From IMG/VR virus record IMGVR_UViG_3300005549_000019, positions 1-33,904 of that record: 33,904 bases of DNA; one strand, written 5' to 3'. The notes under the pieces are model-generated. The model made no database searches. It saw only the letters and a program-made list of their open reading frames with translations, and was not told the DNA's origin. The stretch comes from a virus. The position numbers were made by a program, and so were the translations under genes. Numbering within the stretch: position 1 is the first letter of the stretch; each line of letters opens with the position of its first letter. Below, in pieces: positions 577 through 33,904 of this stretch.

Positions 577-902
577 TGTCCGGTAGCCTTTCTGATCGCT
601 CGGCGTGCCTGTGCGGCCATTGGTGACTCGTCGCATTCAACCGGCCTTATGTTGTCGAAGTGGGCAAGGCAGCGTTGCAGCGCGGCCAAGAGGTCAGGCG
701 CGGCCGTCATCAATCGAGCGTTCGCAAGCAATTCCTCTTCCTTGGGTCCGTGCGGACCTGGGAAAGAATGGATGCCGTCAACGTAAATGCACGCATGGCC
801 CATCTCGCGTCCACAGGTCCCCGGAAACGGGCCGATCTTGTGACAGACGCCTACCTGCGTCTTCACAGTTTCAAGCGTCCAGGGCCCGGTTGTGTGGCTC
901 AT
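573..902 (-). CDS. Phage early protein of the PGPW...NARLxxAAPDLLAAL type
   Basis: This product has 109 residues and starts with MSHTTGPWTLETVK; a longer frame exists, but this ATG forms an ATGA overlap with the exonuclease stop (899-902). The N-terminal TGPW and the C-terminal NARLMTAAPDLLAALQRCL are the two signatures of a widespread small protein of temperate phages, often found near replication and recombination genes. Its biochemical role is not known to me. Cysteines at CHKIGPFPGTC and GHAC could bind a metal, but that is speculative. Family placement is fairly safe; function is open. Confidence 0.75.
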   Translation of the reverse strand: MSHTTGPWTLETVKTQVGVCHKIGPFPGTCGREMGHACIYVDGIHSFPGPHGPKEEELLANARLMTAAPDLLAALQRCLAHFDNIRPVECDESPMAAQARRAIRKATGQ

Positions 903-1804
903 TGCTGCTGTCCCCAGATCATTTCCTGCTCTCTCGCCTCCCACTTCGTCAGTGCATAACTCGGCGTCTCGGGAAAGTTGGTCACTGGCGCGTAGCATGG
1001 CCACTTTCCGTTTCTCAGGCATTCGATCCACTGAAAAACTGCCTGTTGCAATTGCTTCCGGCCCAGCGTCAAGACCGCTTCGGAAAGTTGGTTGACCACA
1101 AGGCCGAACGGCGGATTCTGCTCAATGCTGATGAATCGATAGACGCGCTTGCCGGCGTTCTCGGGGTCGAGGACGTTCAAGCCGCGGTCAATTTGCGCCG
1201 CTTGGATCTGCCAGCCAGAGTCATCCATGCGGCGCCCAGCCTCATGCGGTGGCACGACCAACGACGTGGTTTTCAGGTCCGTGATAACCCGCCGATCCTT
1301 GGAAAGATGGTCGATCAGGGCGCGGAACCAAATGCCGTCTTCCTGCCAGAAGATTGCAACTTCGGAATCGCCATCGGGCAGCGGGCCGGCTTCGTGGACT
1401 GCCAGGAACATTGTGAAGAACTTGGCCACGGCCTCGGCCTGGTCGCAATGAGCTCTCAGGATTGGAAGCTTGCCGGCGGCATAGGCGGCGTCCCTGGCCT
1501 CTTTCGCTGCCTTGGTCCGCATGTCGGCAGCGTCAATGATCGCGATATCCTTGCCCCTGCCCAGAATGAGCTTGTGGGCGACGTCTCCGATCGCGCGGGC
1601 CTTGACGTACTTTTCCGCGTCGTCTTCCTCGGGCCTGACCTTGGCGAATTTGGGGTGCTGATACATCGCATGGGCGCAAGAACTGTCAAGGATGATCTTG
1701 GCCAGCGATTGCGTCAACGACGGGCCGGGTGTCGGGTCGCTGTGGTAAACGTCAATCGGGAAGTCCGGATAAATGCCGGGCTCGGTGATGCTGGTAGCGG
1801 TCAT
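899..1804 (-). CDS. RecE-like (exonuclease VIII-type) PD-(D/E)xK exonuclease
   Basis: This 301-residue product matches the C-terminal nuclease domain of the RecE/exonuclease VIII group, phage enzymes that resect double-stranded DNA ends for single-strand annealing recombination. The N-terminal half has the conserved helix ARAIGDVAHKLILGRG with His77. The nuclease core shows Glu148 (SEVAIFW), Asp165 (RALIDHL) and the D-x-K pair Asp176/Lys178 (VITDLKTTS), followed by an AAQ helix typical of the family. It overlaps a 51-residue ORF upstream and the PGPW gene downstream by ATGA. No annealing protein is visible in the window; one may lie beyond the left edge. Family call confident, exact subfamily less so. 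Confidence 0.85.
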   Translation of the reverse strand: MTATSITEPGIYPDFPIDVYHSDPTPGPSLTQSLAKIILDSSCAHAMYQHPKFAKVRPEEDDAEKYVKARAIGDVAHKLILGRGKDIAIIDAADMRTKAAKEARDAAYAAGKLPILRAHCDQAEAVAKFFTMFLAVHEAGPLPDGDSEVAIFWQEDGIWFRALIDHLSKDRRVITDLKTTSLVVPPHEAGRRMDDSGWQIQAAQIDRGLNVLDPENAGKRVYRFISIEQNPPFGLVVNQLSEAVLTLGRKQLQQAVFQWIECLRNGKWPCYAPVTNFPETPSYALTKWEAREQEMIWGQQQ

Positions 1805-2697: not shown

Positions 2698-3330
2698 ATG
2701 AATGCTGCATTGCGCTTGTTCAATCCCGATCAATCGCGCGAAAGGCCGGCAAAGCAACGGAAGCGGTTGCCTCAATTCCTGCGCTGGCCGGATGCCGAAA
2801 AGCTCTTGGCTTGGTGCGTCGAGGAAATCGAGCGGCGCCGCGGCTGGCGCCGGGAAGCGTCGGCACGTCGGGATGAGGCGATTATCCGCGTCGGCCTGTA
2901 CCTGGGTCTGCGTTGCGCGGAGATTCAAAACCTTGACGTGCCCGACGTGGACCTTGCCAACCGCTCGGTTTTCATCCGGCTCGGCAAGGGCTGCAAGGAT
3001 CGCTACGTCCGCATTCCAGAAAAGCTCGTTCCTCACCTTGACCAGCTGCTTGCCGGCCGCAAGGAAGGAATTTTGATCGTTGGCCGCGATGGACTCCGCG
3101 TGAACGGCCGAACAATTCGCTGGCGGGTCGCCAGGGCGGCACGTCGCGCGGGCCTGGCCGTCCAGATTCACCCACACACCTTGCGGCACACATACGCAAC
3201 CCATTACCTGGAAACTGGCGGGAATATCCGGCGTTTGCAGGCGCTGCTGGGCCACGAGTCCTTGCAGACGACGGCCATTTATCTTGACCTGGACGTTGAA
3301 AAATACGCCGAAGACGTGAACCGGCTTTAA
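2698..3330 (+). CDS. int: Tyrosine recombinase (compact phage integrase)
   Basis: This 210-residue site-specific recombinase would catalyse phage integration or excision, or dimer resolution. All active-site residues are present: Arg72 (GLRCAEI), Lys97 or Lys100 (LGKGCK), His160 and Arg163 (HTLRH), His186 (LGHESLQ) and the nucleophile Tyr195 (TTAIYLDLD). It is short for a phage integrase: there is no arm-binding domain, and only about 30 residues precede the catalytic domain, so most of the core-binding domain is missing. That makes it resemble XerC/D- or integron-like catalytic cores. The start ATG follows AGAGGGAAGCCG. It is one of four rightward genes in the window. Confidence 0.9.
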   Translation: MNAALRLFNPDQSRERPAKQRKRLPQFLRWPDAEKLLAWCVEEIERRRGWRREASARRDEAIIRVGLYLGLRCAEIQNLDVPDVDLANRSVFIRLGKGCKDRYVRIPEKLVPHLDQLLAGRKEGILIVGRDGLRVNGRTIRWRVARAARRAGLAVQIHPHTLRHTYATHYLETGGNIRRLQALLGHESLQTTAIYLDLDVEKYAEDVNRL

Positions 3331-5863: not shown

Positions 5864-6796
5864 TCATTCAAGGCCAGGGAAGGGGTCAGAAAGAACGGTG
5901 TCGCCGCCTGGCACAAGGCCGGTCGAGTAACCCCCTGTGCCGGCTTCGCTATGGCAGGAAAAGCACGTTTGCCCGCGTAGGCCCTTGTAGCCGGGCGGGT
6001 ATTGACTCCGATCTCGGAAAACGACCTGGCTTGTCCACTCGCCGGCCGATTTGCGCCTTTCTCTGTGCTCGAAGACTTTGCCGGTCTCCGCGTTTGAAAG
6101 CACGTCGAAAAAGACCGTGCCGTCCGGGTAGCTGCGCAGGTGGCCTAGTTCGTGCTGGAAGTATCCGAAGCTGTTGAGGACTGGAATCATGCCCTGCCAG
6201 GTCCGGCCCCTGTCGGTCGGGATGATCTTGTAGAGGTCAGATCTCCACCCGACGACGTTTTCCATTCCCCCGGGGACCTGCCATTTCGGAAGCAACGCCG
6301 ATCGGTGAACGCGTTGAATCGCCGACGCGTTGTTGCTGGTGAAAATACTCTGGGTGAATTGAGCGGGCCGATACAAAACGGCGCCATCGGGAAAATCAAC
6401 GTCCTCGGGCCAGGGACCCCCGGCCTCGCCCTCATCGTCAACAGTTTGCCGGCGCGCGGGATCGAGAAACAGGCGCTTGAGAAAAGGGCGCGGCGCCTGC
6501 CTCACCTCCGTTCTGTTCAATTCGCCAAGGTGCTCGACTATATCGAGGTCGGACCAATCGAGCGGAAACGCGGTCTTATACCACTGCTTGCCCTTGTTCC
6601 AGGTCGAAACCTTGAACTGTCCTGAGACAACGTAGAGCGGGTTGGGCGCGCGGTAAACATTGGGCTGGTTGGGGCCCAGGACGATTACCGTCGGAGCGGC
6701 CGGCTTGACCTGCGCGGCGGCCAGGGCCAGGGCGGCGCGCGCGTCGTCGTCGGGGCCGGCGACAAGCATCAAAGCGAGTGTGAGAAATCCATTCAT
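5864..6796 (-). CDS. Secreted protein with a single CxxCH haem-attachment motif
   Basis: This 310-residue protein starts MNGFLTLALMLVAGPDDDAR, a short Sec-type signal. Near the C-terminus is GQTCFSCHSEAG (Cys278, Cys281, His282), the covalent haem-c motif, followed by GGYSTGLVPGGDTVLSDPFP. The stretch before it (RSYPDGTVFFDVLSN ... GEWTSQVVFRD) resembles the cytochrome P460-like arrangement, in which a beta domain ends in CxxCH. The ATG overlaps the HNH gene stop as ATGA. A c-type cytochrome is unexpected among phage late genes and looks host-derived. HELGH at 215-219 also matches the HExxH metallopeptidase pattern, but without a clear third ligand. Haem binding is not proven. Confidence 0.65.
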   Translation of the reverse strand: MNGFLTLALMLVAGPDDDARAALALAAAQVKPAAPTVIVLGPNQPNVYRAPNPLYVVSGQFKVSTWNKGKQWYKTAFPLDWSDLDIVEHLGELNRTEVRQAPRPFLKRLFLDPARRQTVDDEGEAGGPWPEDVDFPDGAVLYRPAQFTQSIFTSNNASAIQRVHRSALLPKWQVPGGMENVVGWRSDLYKIIPTDRGRTWQGMIPVLNSFGYFQHELGHLRSYPDGTVFFDVLSNAETGKVFEHRERRKSAGEWTSQVVFRDRSQYPPGYKGLRGQTCFSCHSEAGTGGYSTGLVPGGDTVLSDPFPGLE

Positions 6797-7224
6797 CGGG
6801 TATTGCCTCCTTTTGGAACTGCGAAAAGTCTGCCGTTTCTCCAACCTTGCTTCCATCGCCAGTGCAGCGTGAAGTAACTCAGGCCCAAGATTCTGGCCCA
6901 CTCTTTTAGGTTCTTGGTCTCTCCATTGCGCTCGGCGTTGATGTTGTTACGTCGATTGTGCTGCTGTTCGGTCCAAGTTGCCCAACGAACGTTGCCCGGC
7001 TCGTAGTTGCCATTTTGATCTGGGAACCGATCAAGGGTGTGCCTTGGCGTTGGCTTTGGCCCGACGTCACGCAAGAAAGCATGAAAGTTTTTTCTCCACT
7101 CGGGACAAACGCAGATGCCACGGCCACCGTAAAGGTGAAAGTCGTTGATTCCTTTCACCTCGCAGCGATTGATCATTCCTCGCCAGGCCGCATACTCTGG
7201 CGTGCGATACCATGCCTTTCCCAT
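6793..7224 (-). CDS. Free-standing HNH-type homing endonuclease
   Basis: This 143-residue protein has the layout of phage HNH-like homing nucleases. TPEYAAWRGMINRC opens the domain and LYGGRGICVCPEW contributes cysteines. The nuclease core is HTLDR (His62), NGNYEPGNVRWAT (residues 71-82) and EQQHNRR. A C-terminal helix-turn-helix of the NUMOD type (TKNLKEWARILGLSYFTL) would give DNA specificity. Such genes insert between phage genes as selfish elements; here it sits between the peptidase and the cytochrome-like gene. The ribosome site is weak. Catalytic competence looks intact. Confidence 0.85.
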   Translation of the reverse strand: MGKAWYRTPEYAAWRGMINRCEVKGINDFHLYGGRGICVCPEWRKNFHAFLRDVGPKPTPRHTLDRFPDQNGNYEPGNVRWATWTEQQHNRRNNINAERNGETKNLKEWARILGLSYFTLHWRWKQGWRNGRLFAVPKGGNTR

Positions 7225-30081: not shown

Positions 30082-31527
30082 TTACCCCCTGATCGGCTTC
30101 AAAGTCCCGTTTGTCTTCCCATGCTCCAACGCGGTCAGTAACGCCTCGCGGCGTTGATCGATCTTTTCCCAACTCGCGTCAACGAGGTGCTTCGGGCGCG
30201 AATTGTTTGAATCAGGATCTTCCCCTTGCCCGTCTTCCTTGGGGCCTGGATCTTTGCCCCCCGGCGGTGGCAACTGCGTCTGTATCGCGCGCTCGTTCAC
30301 CCAAGGCTCATCGAGGTGATCGAAGTTGCGATACCGACGGCGTTCTTGCAGGGTGGCCGCGCCGCATTTGATATCGTTTGCCCACTTCAATTCTTCGAGG
30401 GCCTCGTCTTTGAACTCCGGAGCAAGGATCGACATGCCGTATTCCCGGCCCCACGTCGGGCGCATGATGTGTTTGTTCCAGCCGGCGCCGACGCGCAACA
30501 GGACGGGCCCCAAGCTCAGATAGGAGAAGGCACGGAGGCTTGAATATAAAGTCGCGTACGAAAGATTGCTTTGAAGTCCGGCAACGGCCATCGGCACGCC
30601 ATAGCACGCAAGGATGAAATCAAGGATCTGTGTCCATCCTTCGGTCCATCCCATTTCGGCCGGCGTCGTGGAAATCTTCGAGAACTTGGCGCCTGGCGGC
30701 GGAATTAATACCTTGCCCGCGTTCTGGGGTCCGGCATACAACGCGGTCAACTGCGCGCGAATGCGGGCAAGGTCGGTGTTGTCCGGACTGATTGTTTCGC
30801 CGTCGAGGTCGAGGGACAGGGTTTGCTCGCAACCCTGTGTTTGGGAATTGAAGCGGCTTTTGTCAATGCCTTCAATGGTGTCGACCTGAAGCGCGATCGC
30901 AGACAAAACAGCATAGCCGTCATACCGAAAAATTGGATGCTGATTGCGAGTCCGCTTGACCTGCTCGGCCGGGATCGTCGCCCCTGCACTCACTTGGCCA
31001 ACGGGCGCGCCGAACAATCCGTATGGATATGGCAGCACTCGGTAGGCGCCGTTCGGATAGTCCGGGCTCGGTGGCATTGGCCAAGCTGTCGAGGAAGGCA
31101 GGTTGTACAGCTCGCCAATGTCGCCCTTGCGATCTCGGCTCGGCACTGCCCACGTTAGCGCGATGCCGGTCAGGCTCAATTGTTGAACCGTCTGATACAT
31201 CAGGTCAATGAAGGTGTCTTGCGGGTTCGGATCTTCCCACAATTCGCAAATTGGGTCGAAGTGGTGGAGTTGCCGCTTCCCCTCGGGCGCGTCCTCATCC
31301 TCGGTCCGCTCGTAAATCTCAAGGCGGCTCCCGCTCGCCTGGGTGGCAAGCGTGTTGATTGCCAAGAAGGCGGCGCCGGTGAAGTGACGGGCAAGCTCCG
31401 TGATGTTCGAACTCCACTGGCCGGGCGCGCCTGTTCGAAGTGTGCCAAGCAGTCCGGAGATATCGGAACTTGCCCGCTTGACTTGCGGGGCCTCGGTGTG
31501 CCTGTCGGTGTAACGCGCTCGGGCCAT
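30082..31527 (-). CDS. Portal protein, HK97 type
   Basis: The 481-residue form starts MARARYTDRHTEAPQVKRAS at 31527; a longer frame overlaps the upstream small gene and the promoter module. Family features are present: a clip/wing region with IYERTEDEDAPEGKRQLHHF, the strand-rich crown, GKVLIPPPGAKFSKISTTPA, and the helix FILACYGVPMAVAGLQSNLSY followed by the LRAFSYLSLGPVL segment. The portal forms the dodecameric ring through which DNA enters. The C-terminal 60 residues are Pro/Asp-rich, then basic and helical. It lies between terminase and protease as usual. Confidence 0.9.
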   Translation of the reverse strand: MARARYTDRHTEAPQVKRASSDISGLLGTLRTGAPGQWSSNITELARHFTGAAFLAINTLATQASGSRLEIYERTEDEDAPEGKRQLHHFDPICELWEDPNPQDTFIDLMYQTVQQLSLTGIALTWAVPSRDRKGDIGELYNLPSSTAWPMPPSPDYPNGAYRVLPYPYGLFGAPVGQVSAGATIPAEQVKRTRNQHPIFRYDGYAVLSAIALQVDTIEGIDKSRFNSQTQGCEQTLSLDLDGETISPDNTDLARIRAQLTALYAGPQNAGKVLIPPPGAKFSKISTTPAEMGWTEGWTQILDFILACYGVPMAVAGLQSNLSYATLYSSLRAFSYLSLGPVLLRVGAGWNKHIMRPTWGREYGMSILAPEFKDEALEELKWANDIKCGAATLQERRRYRNFDHLDEPWVNERAIQTQLPPPGGKDPGPKEDGQGEDPDSNNSRPKHLVDASWEKIDQRREALLTALEHGKTNGTLKPIRG

Positions 31528-31535
31528 GGGTTCAG

Positions 31536-31576
31536 ATTGTAGCGGGGCGGTCTGGGGCAATGACAGGTTGGCAGTT
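31536..31576 (-). promoter_or_regulatory. Late promoter-like module, copy A (portal)
   Basis: AACTGCCAACCTGTC starts at 31576, inside the TAA stop of the preceding small gene. TACAAT lies at 31541-31536, eight bases before the portal ATG at 31527. The block and box line up base for base with copies B and C. Confidence 0.75.
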
Positions 31577-31823
31577 ATCGGGCCGGCGCGGGAAACGACG
31601 TGCGCATATGTACGGCGTCGTGAATGGATAGGCCACAGTGCCCGCAAAGGTCCGTGCCATCGCCTCGCGATTCGTGGACGTGCGGAACCATTCCAGGCGG
31701 TGCTTTGGGCCGCAAGCGTTCCAGGGCATCAATCGCGACGTCGAGGGCCTCCCGTTCTTGGGGGTAAATCATGCAACTTGTCCGGAGGTTCTTGAGCGCG
31801 TCAATCGCTTCGTCGAGTTTCAT
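31575..31823 (-). CDS. Small protein with a C-terminal zinc-ribbon-like motif
   Basis: This 82-residue product is joined to the terminase stop by ATGA (31820-31823). The N-terminal half is a helical hairpin (MKLDEAIDALKNLRTSCMIY ... EALDVAIDALERLRP). The C-terminal half has histidines and a CGHC pair (HVHESRGDGTDLCGHCGLSI) that could bind zinc. Helical repeats of the form LDEAIDALKNLR and LDVAIDALERLR look like an internal duplication. It may be a packaging accessory given its position between terminase and portal, but this is position-based. Confidence 0.6.
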   Translation of the reverse strand: MKLDEAIDALKNLRTSCMIYPQEREALDVAIDALERLRPKAPPGMVPHVHESRGDGTDLCGHCGLSIHDAVHMRTSFPAPAR

Positions 31824-33517
31824 TTCAGGAGTCCTTTATCGCGGAGATACTTCCTCGCCTTCTCTGCCGTCTCCGCGTCGGCAGGGTCGGGCGGTAACAC
31901 GTTCTCGGGATCGCGGCCAAGTGCTTCCATCGTCATGTTGGTGGCCAGCGCTGCCGCGCGATCGGTCGAAAAGTCACCGAAGCCGATCGCGCCGCCGTCA
32001 ATGTGGACGGTCCAGCAATCGTAGGTTTCCAGGTAGCGAATGCCGGTGTACTTGGTCTCGGGCCTGGGCGTCGAGCTGCTCGGGCTGTCGGCGGTGACAA
32101 TCTGGATTTCCGGCTTAATGATCCGCTTGACGGCGGCCTGCACTGCGAGCGCGAAACCGATAGCGCGATCGTCATGGCTGCCGAAAGGCGCTTCGAGGTT
32201 GGCCACGTCGAGGGATGCGAGTTGATCGAAGGTTGCCTTGCTGTGGATCACGCAACCGCCAACACGCACTTGTTCCGCGACGGAATCGTACATCAGGTTT
32301 TTGCTGACCTCATCGGTCCACCATCCAAGGTGTTTATCTCGGCCCATGAGGATGCGGGCCTTCTCGCGCCGCAAGCTCTCGATAAACTTCGTGCCGTGCT
32401 GCGCGTTCCGCTCGGGGAGGATTTCGGCGTTGCTGTAGTAGCGGGCCAGGAGCGCGCAACGATAGCCGTGTACGGTCGGTTCGATTTTCCCGCACAGGAC
32501 CGCGCATTCCTCCAAGGTCTCAGCGTCGAGGACTTCGCCGGTCGAGTCGTCGCTGTTCGGGTTGCCCTTGGCCACGTCGGCGCCAAGCACATAACGGCGG
32601 TCGGGCTCGGGAAGCTTGTAGAACTCGATCAGGTGTTGCCAGCCTTTGAACGGTGTCCCCTTGGGAATGGGTAGCGGCTTGCGCTCCTGGAAGACGGTCA
32701 ACAGCTTTGCGACGGGGAAGCGCTTGTCAAGCTCGCGGGCGGCAAGGGCCTCCTCGGGGCTCGCCGGATAGTTGGCGTACAACTCATCGCGGGAAAAGGT
32801 CCTGTCCTCAATTTCCTTGGCCACGTTCCGATACCATTCCGCATTGCGGCCCGGGCGTGCCCACCATGGGACAAAGATCGGTTGAAACTCAGATCGGCCG
32901 GCCAGGGCGGCGCGCATGATGTTTTTGAAACTGCTCTTTTCCGCGTGAACGCTGCTTTTCTCGGAACGGGAGAGAATGACCAACTTGCCGCCGGCGTCAA
33001 TGGTCGGCTTGGCTCCGGAAAGCAGAATGTCCAGGTTGCGGATAAGGTCGGCCTCGTCAATGACAACAACGTCGGCCGTGTACGAGTCGCCGCCGCTCGC
33101 CATGCTGCCGAAACTGATAAGCCGGCTGCCGTTCGTTAGCTCAAGCTCCGTCGTGCTGTCCTTCGTGAAGCCTCGCGGCTGCAACCATTCGGGCAACCCC
33201 TTGAACGTGGCGCGGATCCTCTTGAGCAAATCCTTTGCCTCTTGGTGAGACTTGGAAAAAAGAAGCGTGGTCCAGGGCGCGTCATAGATCGAATGATGGG
33301 CGGTATCGGCGGCAATGAGAGAAGTAAAGCCGGTCTGCCGGGCCTTGAGCATGGCAACGAACCGCTCGCGTCTCATGGTCTTGAGCGATTCAACCTGGTC
33401 GGGCCAAAGACGGAAAGGATCATTCTTGGGAGGGAGTTTGCAATAGTTGTGGATGAAGTACAGGGGATTCGAGCAACGGATTATTTCGGCGTCGATTTGG
33501 TCGAGGGTGGCGGTCAT
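31820..33517 (-). CDS. terL: Terminase large subunit with an AP2-like C-terminal domain
   Basis: The 565-residue form starts MTATLDQIDAEIIRCSNPLY at 33517, where the ATG overlaps the previous stop as ATGA. The ATPase shows a Walker A-like LKARQTGFTS (about 58-67) and Walker B VVVIDEADL (about 150-158). The RNase H-like nuclease shows Asp314 in VLGADVAKG and SHDDRAIG (447-454). Residues about 487-533 (KYTGIRYLETYDCW, then IGFGDFSTDRAAA) fit the AP2 DNA-binding pattern Y-x-G-[VI]...W-x-[AV]-x-[IV]...G-x-F-x-T...AA. It packages DNA into heads. No small terminase gene is in the window. Confidence 0.9.
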   Translation of the reverse strand: MTATLDQIDAEIIRCSNPLYFIHNYCKLPPKNDPFRLWPDQVESLKTMRRERFVAMLKARQTGFTSLIAADTAHHSIYDAPWTTLLFSKSHQEAKDLLKRIRATFKGLPEWLQPRGFTKDSTTELELTNGSRLISFGSMASGGDSYTADVVVIDEADLIRNLDILLSGAKPTIDAGGKLVILSRSEKSSVHAEKSSFKNIMRAALAGRSEFQPIFVPWWARPGRNAEWYRNVAKEIEDRTFSRDELYANYPASPEEALAARELDKRFPVAKLLTVFQERKPLPIPKGTPFKGWQHLIEFYKLPEPDRRYVLGADVAKGNPNSDDSTGEVLDAETLEECAVLCGKIEPTVHGYRCALLARYYSNAEILPERNAQHGTKFIESLRREKARILMGRDKHLGWWTDEVSKNLMYDSVAEQVRVGGCVIHSKATFDQLASLDVANLEAPFGSHDDRAIGFALAVQAAVKRIIKPEIQIVTADSPSSSTPRPETKYTGIRYLETYDCWTVHIDGGAIGFGDFSTDRAAALATNMTMEALGRDPENVLPPDPADAETAEKARKYLRDKGLLK

Positions 33518-33846: not shown

Positions 33847-33904
33847 GGAATTCCTGGCGCCGGGTGAAAAATGGAAACTTTTGCGCGTAAAGAGAGGCGC
33901 GCCC

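Follow-up and report, generated by a model that had tools for sequence, protein, structure and literature searches.

A phage large terminase subunit (TerL) carries a 98-residue C-terminal extension (residues 468 to 565) beyond its nuclease domain, which ends at about residue 467. The extension was found in none of the other terminases compared, resembles AP2 domains above chance and is acidic. The best explanation for these observations, to which we give as a whole a probability of about one-half, is that an AP2-like module was captured by an ordinary TerL and now acts as an accessory contact module, with the small terminase subunit (TerS) encoded elsewhere. Terminases usually have their small and large subunits as distinct proteins, and it is still debated how the packaging motor finds phage DNA. 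If a fold of the DNA-binding type had been joined to TerL in nature, the fusion would make it simple to test whether recognition can move into the motor. The case for an AP2-like module is weak but real and that for its use in DNA recognition is weak, and on present evidence the fusion has the more modest value of a case in which an essential packaging gene appears to have acquired a domain of the homing-endonuclease type.

The large terminase and its relatives

The window analyzed is the whole of IMG/VR record IMGVR_UViG_3300005549_000019 (33,904 b), from a soil-type phage. Its late genes lie on the minus strand and run leftward in the order Dam-like open reading frame (ORF), terL, 82-aa ORF, portal, prohead protease, major capsid protein and further structural genes (Table 1).

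Table 1. Position of terL, of the parts of its product and of other genes discussed in the text
Feature	Position	Strand	Basis or remark
terL, large terminase subunit, 565 aa, T4 gp17 type	31820..33517	-	ATG at 33517; phrog_2, E 1.6e-22
ATPase and nuclease domains, residues 1-467	32117..33517	-	Confidently modeled
Ser/Pro-rich linker, residues 468-487	32057..32116	-	Low confidence, pLDDT < 50
AP2-like segment, residues 488-533 (KYTGIRYLETYDCWTVHIDGGAIGFGDFSTDRAAALATNMTMEAL)	31919..32056	-	AP2 HMM and shuffles, ORF ranking, hhalign
Predicted C-terminal helix, residues 548-560	about 31838-31876	-	Block pLDDT about 72
Dam-like ORF, 110 aa	33514..33846	-	Pfam Dam, E 8.7e-7; phrog_111, E 8.7e-19
82-aa ORF between terL and portal	31575..31823	-	CxxC/H-rich C-terminal part, CGHC...H pattern
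Portal protein	30082..31527	-	phrog_2662, E 1e-26; next structural gene after terL and the 82-aa ORF
HNH endonuclease	6793-7224	-	phrog_3377, E 5e-46; overlaps the CxxCH ORF in another frame

Sequence and predicted structure indicate that the TerL core is an ordinary gp17-type large terminase and probably active. T4 gp17 was the best match both by sequence in the PDB (3ezk; E = 3e-12) and by predicted fold (mean pLDDT of 85 for the full chain), for which Foldseek returned 3cpe (E = 8e-30) and, for the ATPase, also 2o0j. Both features that define the gp17 type, the ATPase motifs and fold and an RNase H-like nuclease with an acidic active site, were found. The ATPase motifs LKARQTGFT (LKARQxGxT) and VVVIDEAD are kept in TerL and its relatives. 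The nuclease domain gave Foldseek matches to those of G20c and RB49, and across 48 sequences its acidic residues D314, D449 and D450 are invariant, while E369 is present in >90%. The phage protein is thus like the T4 gp17-type TerLs (3cpe and 3ezk) in combining an ATPase with an RNase H-like nuclease and in having a gene that adjoins that of the portal, but gp17 and the 127 distinct complete TerLs compared have no AP2-like extension.

Relatives were gathered by alignment-guided scans of IMG/VR and GTDB genomes; an alignment of seven TerL sequences was too divergent for searching, and narrower alignments were used. Exact-peptide scans with TerL, the major capsid protein and the portal returned only the same phage, plus one TerL of 25% identity (L002). 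The collection comprised 153 complete TerL ORFs (127 distinct) from IMG/VR and genome contigs; genomes of the phylum to which the Chloroflexi metagenome-assembled genome (MAG) G001 belongs supplied others. The original prediction had called for homologous terminases to be compared for the tail, and a profile search found the AP2-like segment in 0 of the 127 other distinct complete TerLs, including about 17 from the phage's own clade. These clade TerLs share 34 to 42% identity with it over about residues 1 to 470 and end soon after the nuclease domain. The clade (L092 to L106 and the Chloroflexi MAG contigs L172, L173, L191 and L199, with 36 to 42% identity over that region) likewise has terL upstream of the portal gene wherever this can be read, but its TerLs lack the extension, which among the sequences compared was seen only in this phage. 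The open-access papers searched also described no AP2-terminase fusion.

Homologues of the tail were sought in phages, plasmids, 301 genomes of the G001 phylum and IMG/VR, which returned the phage itself and otherwise matches no better than chance. No separate AP2 gene was found beside terL in the loci of relatives or, with the Pfam model, in the virus records of the clade, and the 7.2-Mb MAG G001 contained only two AP2 matches, both below the cut-off. An insertion of a different kind was seen in a gp17-type TerL of 715 aa from a genome of the G001 phylum (L196:1402-3546; Chloroflexi MAG): it lies inside the ATPase domain and is intein-like in look (HPLFTSLGWINAEDL...VISSNT).

A second record of the same phage, IMGVR_UViG_3300025922_000080, carries the same sequence, with one mismatch in 8,082 b, located outside terL; the two records are 33.9 and 9.5 kb long, and both assemblies may share reads. 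This agreement between the records, together with continuous GC and GC3, led us to reject a frameshift in one assembly as the source of the extension. Both records (L001 and L011) stop at the identical base, 387 b upstream of terL. When an extension of the right end was sought, the sole other contig ended at the same base and no longer contig was found, and the shared end at position 33904 suggests that the assembly broke there or that the sequence has a genuine terminus or repeat at that point. At its left end (positions 1 to 30), the record lies within a short CCACGA-type tandem repeat, where the assembly likely broke as well.

Resemblance of the extension to AP2 domains

The AP2 pattern initially read from the TerL tail is present in full (YTGI, WTVHI and GDFST, then DRAAALA, which has AA). 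For comparison, an AP2 HMM was built from 15 phage AP2 domains, for which the Pan5 HNH-AP2 protein served as seed; three scanned members of this reference set also match Pfam AP2, below its cut-off. Against this HMM, whose reference set is not fully independent because Pan5 had come up as a weak match of the tail itself, the tail scored 15.5 bits, compared with a maximum of 7.2 bits for 5,000 shuffles of the tail. Among 16,590 ORFs of the collected loci, the terL ORF and its identical copies scored highest of the nonreference ORFs (13.2 bits for the full ORF, with 9.1 bits for the next). Alignment of the tail with phage AP2 by hhalign gave a probability of 77% (P = 2e-5). With a correction for about 24,000 families, the AP2 score of the tail corresponds to an E value of about 0.02, which makes the AP2 call credible yet weak.

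Like AP2/ERF domains (PF00847), the tail has the conserved aromatic, Gly and Thr positions and, as predicted at low confidence, the order strand-strand-strand-helix. Unlike them, it gave no match to PF00847 at an E value of ≤10 (none occurred in the record at ≤0.001), and its hairpin between strands 2 and 3 is shorter by two residues than that of the AP2 references. Genuine phage HNH-AP2 proteins, too, score under the cut-off of the Pfam model. Sequence searches with the tail in NCBIfam and the PDB gave no AP2 match. The sequence resemblance to AP2 domains is nevertheless above chance and may be called weak but real.

Modeled alone with AlphaFold, the tail forms three strands followed by two helices, which agrees with the AP2 order, at a mean pLDDT of 41, and in the full-length model, which included the 48-sequence alignment, residues 468 to 521 have a pLDDT of <50. 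The structure prediction that the original note had proposed as a check gave the order of strands and helix at low confidence. Foldseek with the low-confidence tail model returned nothing significant; crystal structures of the AP2 domain of TEM1 (7et4 and 7et5) stood at ranks 4 and 8, with nonsignificant E values of 2 to 3.5. This result is not taken as proof, because the tail models are of low confidence. The claim of an AP2-like domain on TerL is accordingly borne out for sequence resemblance (HMM and hhalign), and for the fold it has the low-confidence model; we regard an AP2 fold as probable on the predicted strand order.

The tail might instead have a small fold unrelated to AP2, or be largely disordered, with a spacing of W, G, F and T that fits AP2 by chance; this possibility deserves serious weight even if we would bet against it. 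Such a reading would account for the absence of Pfam, NCBIfam and PDB sequence matches, for the low AlphaFold confidence and the lack of a significant Foldseek match, and for a hairpin that is short and a segment that is acidic; a score of about 15 bits is, with the number of families considered, also weak. It sits less well with a score twice that of the best shuffle and above those of all other real ORFs ranked, with a strand order that agrees even though it was predicted without AP2 input, and with the two AP2 structures, nonsignificant as they are, near the top of the Foldseek ranking.

DNA recognition and the small-subunit locus

AP2 domains contact DNA through the sheet. The basic DNA-contacting sheet that characterizes them was not found in the tail, whose sheet has a net charge of −3, compared with +1 to +7 in the 15 phage AP2 domains. 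The AP2-like segment has a net charge of −4, and the pI of its core is 4.6, compared with 6.8 to 10.0 in the same 15 domains. The putative DNA-facing sheet has one Arg within it and one Lys beside it, and at the seven base-contacting positions of plant AtERF1 in its complex with DNA, the tail keeps one Arg only, the other six not being kept. These features argue, though not decisively, against sequence-specific DNA recognition by the tail and so tell against the original proposal that a built-in recognition domain replaces TerS.

That proposal, in which the tail would recognize the packaging start site in place of TerS, draws on the resemblance to AP2, on the scanned ORFs of the record having given no TerS and on the occupation of the usual TerS position by another gene. 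We consider it unlikely. Besides the acidity of the would-be DNA-contacting sheet, with the record ending 387 b upstream of terL, the next gene out may be that of TerS, and a TerS-less arrangement was found in no relative. TerS of T4 regulates the ATPase of TerL and forms rings (PMC9958956), and it is not obvious how a domain of 46 residues could take over these functions. An elaborated version, in which TerL picks the packaging site through its own AP2-like domain without TerS, possibly with the methylase-like protein encoded at the TerS locus, which lacks its catalytic motif, as a second DNA-recognition part, is more improbable still.

The earlier observation that no TerS is seen is true of the record, whose scanned ORFs gave no TerS family match, but is uninformative because the sequence ends so close to terL. 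The Dam-like ORF overlaps the terL start (ATGA) and sits where relatives have TerS. Compared with intact relatives, it lacks the NPPY catalytic segment; among the 75 IMG/VR loci retrieved, 73 keep an [NDS]PP[YFW] motif, and of the 2 without it, one is this same phage and the other is cut off by its contig end. In clade members with upstream sequence, a candidate TerS gene overlaps or just precedes terL. Its product matches phrog_6299 in L092, L097 and L172, phrog_1206 in L103 and L105, and Pfam Terminase_2 in L100 (E = 1e-22); TerS matches are weak in L099 (phrog_2538) and L102, and in L094, L095 and L106 the candidates are identified by position only. In most clade loci with upstream sequence, a gene resembling that of TerS thus overlaps the start of terL, at the place that the Dam-like ORF takes in this phage.

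Origin and possible role of the extension

We propose that in one phage lineage a gp17-type TerL gained a tail made up of a flexible linker, an AP2-related segment and, at its end, a helix. The AP2-related segment would most likely have come from a neighboring HNH-AP2 homing endonuclease, the AP2 part of which became joined to the 3' end of terL. Phages often carry such endonucleases, which occur close to terminase genes in 14% of 431 neighborhoods (PMC10448857), and AP2-bearing phage proteins match phrog_3377, the same family as the HNH endonuclease of this phage. The presence of that endonuclease and the occurrence of HNH-AP2 proteins near terminases are counted in favor of a capture. The 82-aa ORF at the junction of terL and portal is missing in most relatives, in which the portal gene comes straight after terL, and also points to insertion at that site. 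HNH-AP2 homing endonucleases (Pan5 UXO94102 and the ICP1-like IPA-HNH) share with the tail the pattern Y.G[VI]...W...I.dG...G.[FY].T..AA but differ from it in having basic sheets and an HNH nuclease domain. No HNH domain was recognized in the tail and no HNH remnant was visible beside it, and no intermediates linking the tail to AP2 homing endonucleases were found in phages, plasmids, the 301 genomes of the G001 phylum or IMG/VR. GC and GC3 of the tail match those of the rest of terL; this gives no sign of recent capture and counts against the proposal.

After capture, the DNA-facing surface of the module would have lost its positive charge. A capture of this kind and the later loss of the basic surface would explain the facts by known processes. 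The tail would then most likely serve as a protein-contact or tethering module, facing the portal, an unseen TerS or other motor subunits, with DNA contact that is at most weak and nonspecific, and the packaging site would still be chosen by a TerS encoded upstream, beyond the record.

Other genes of the record were noted in passing. The left end encodes an exonuclease VIII-like protein (899-1804, minus strand) and a short tyrosine integrase of 210 aa (2698-3330, plus strand), mostly the catalytic part. The ORF at 5864-6901 (minus strand) is predicted to encode a protein whose N-terminal segment is hydrophobic and which has a CxxCH motif (CFSCH) of the kind found in c-type cytochromes; it matched no Pfam family and is an unusual neighbor for phage structural genes.
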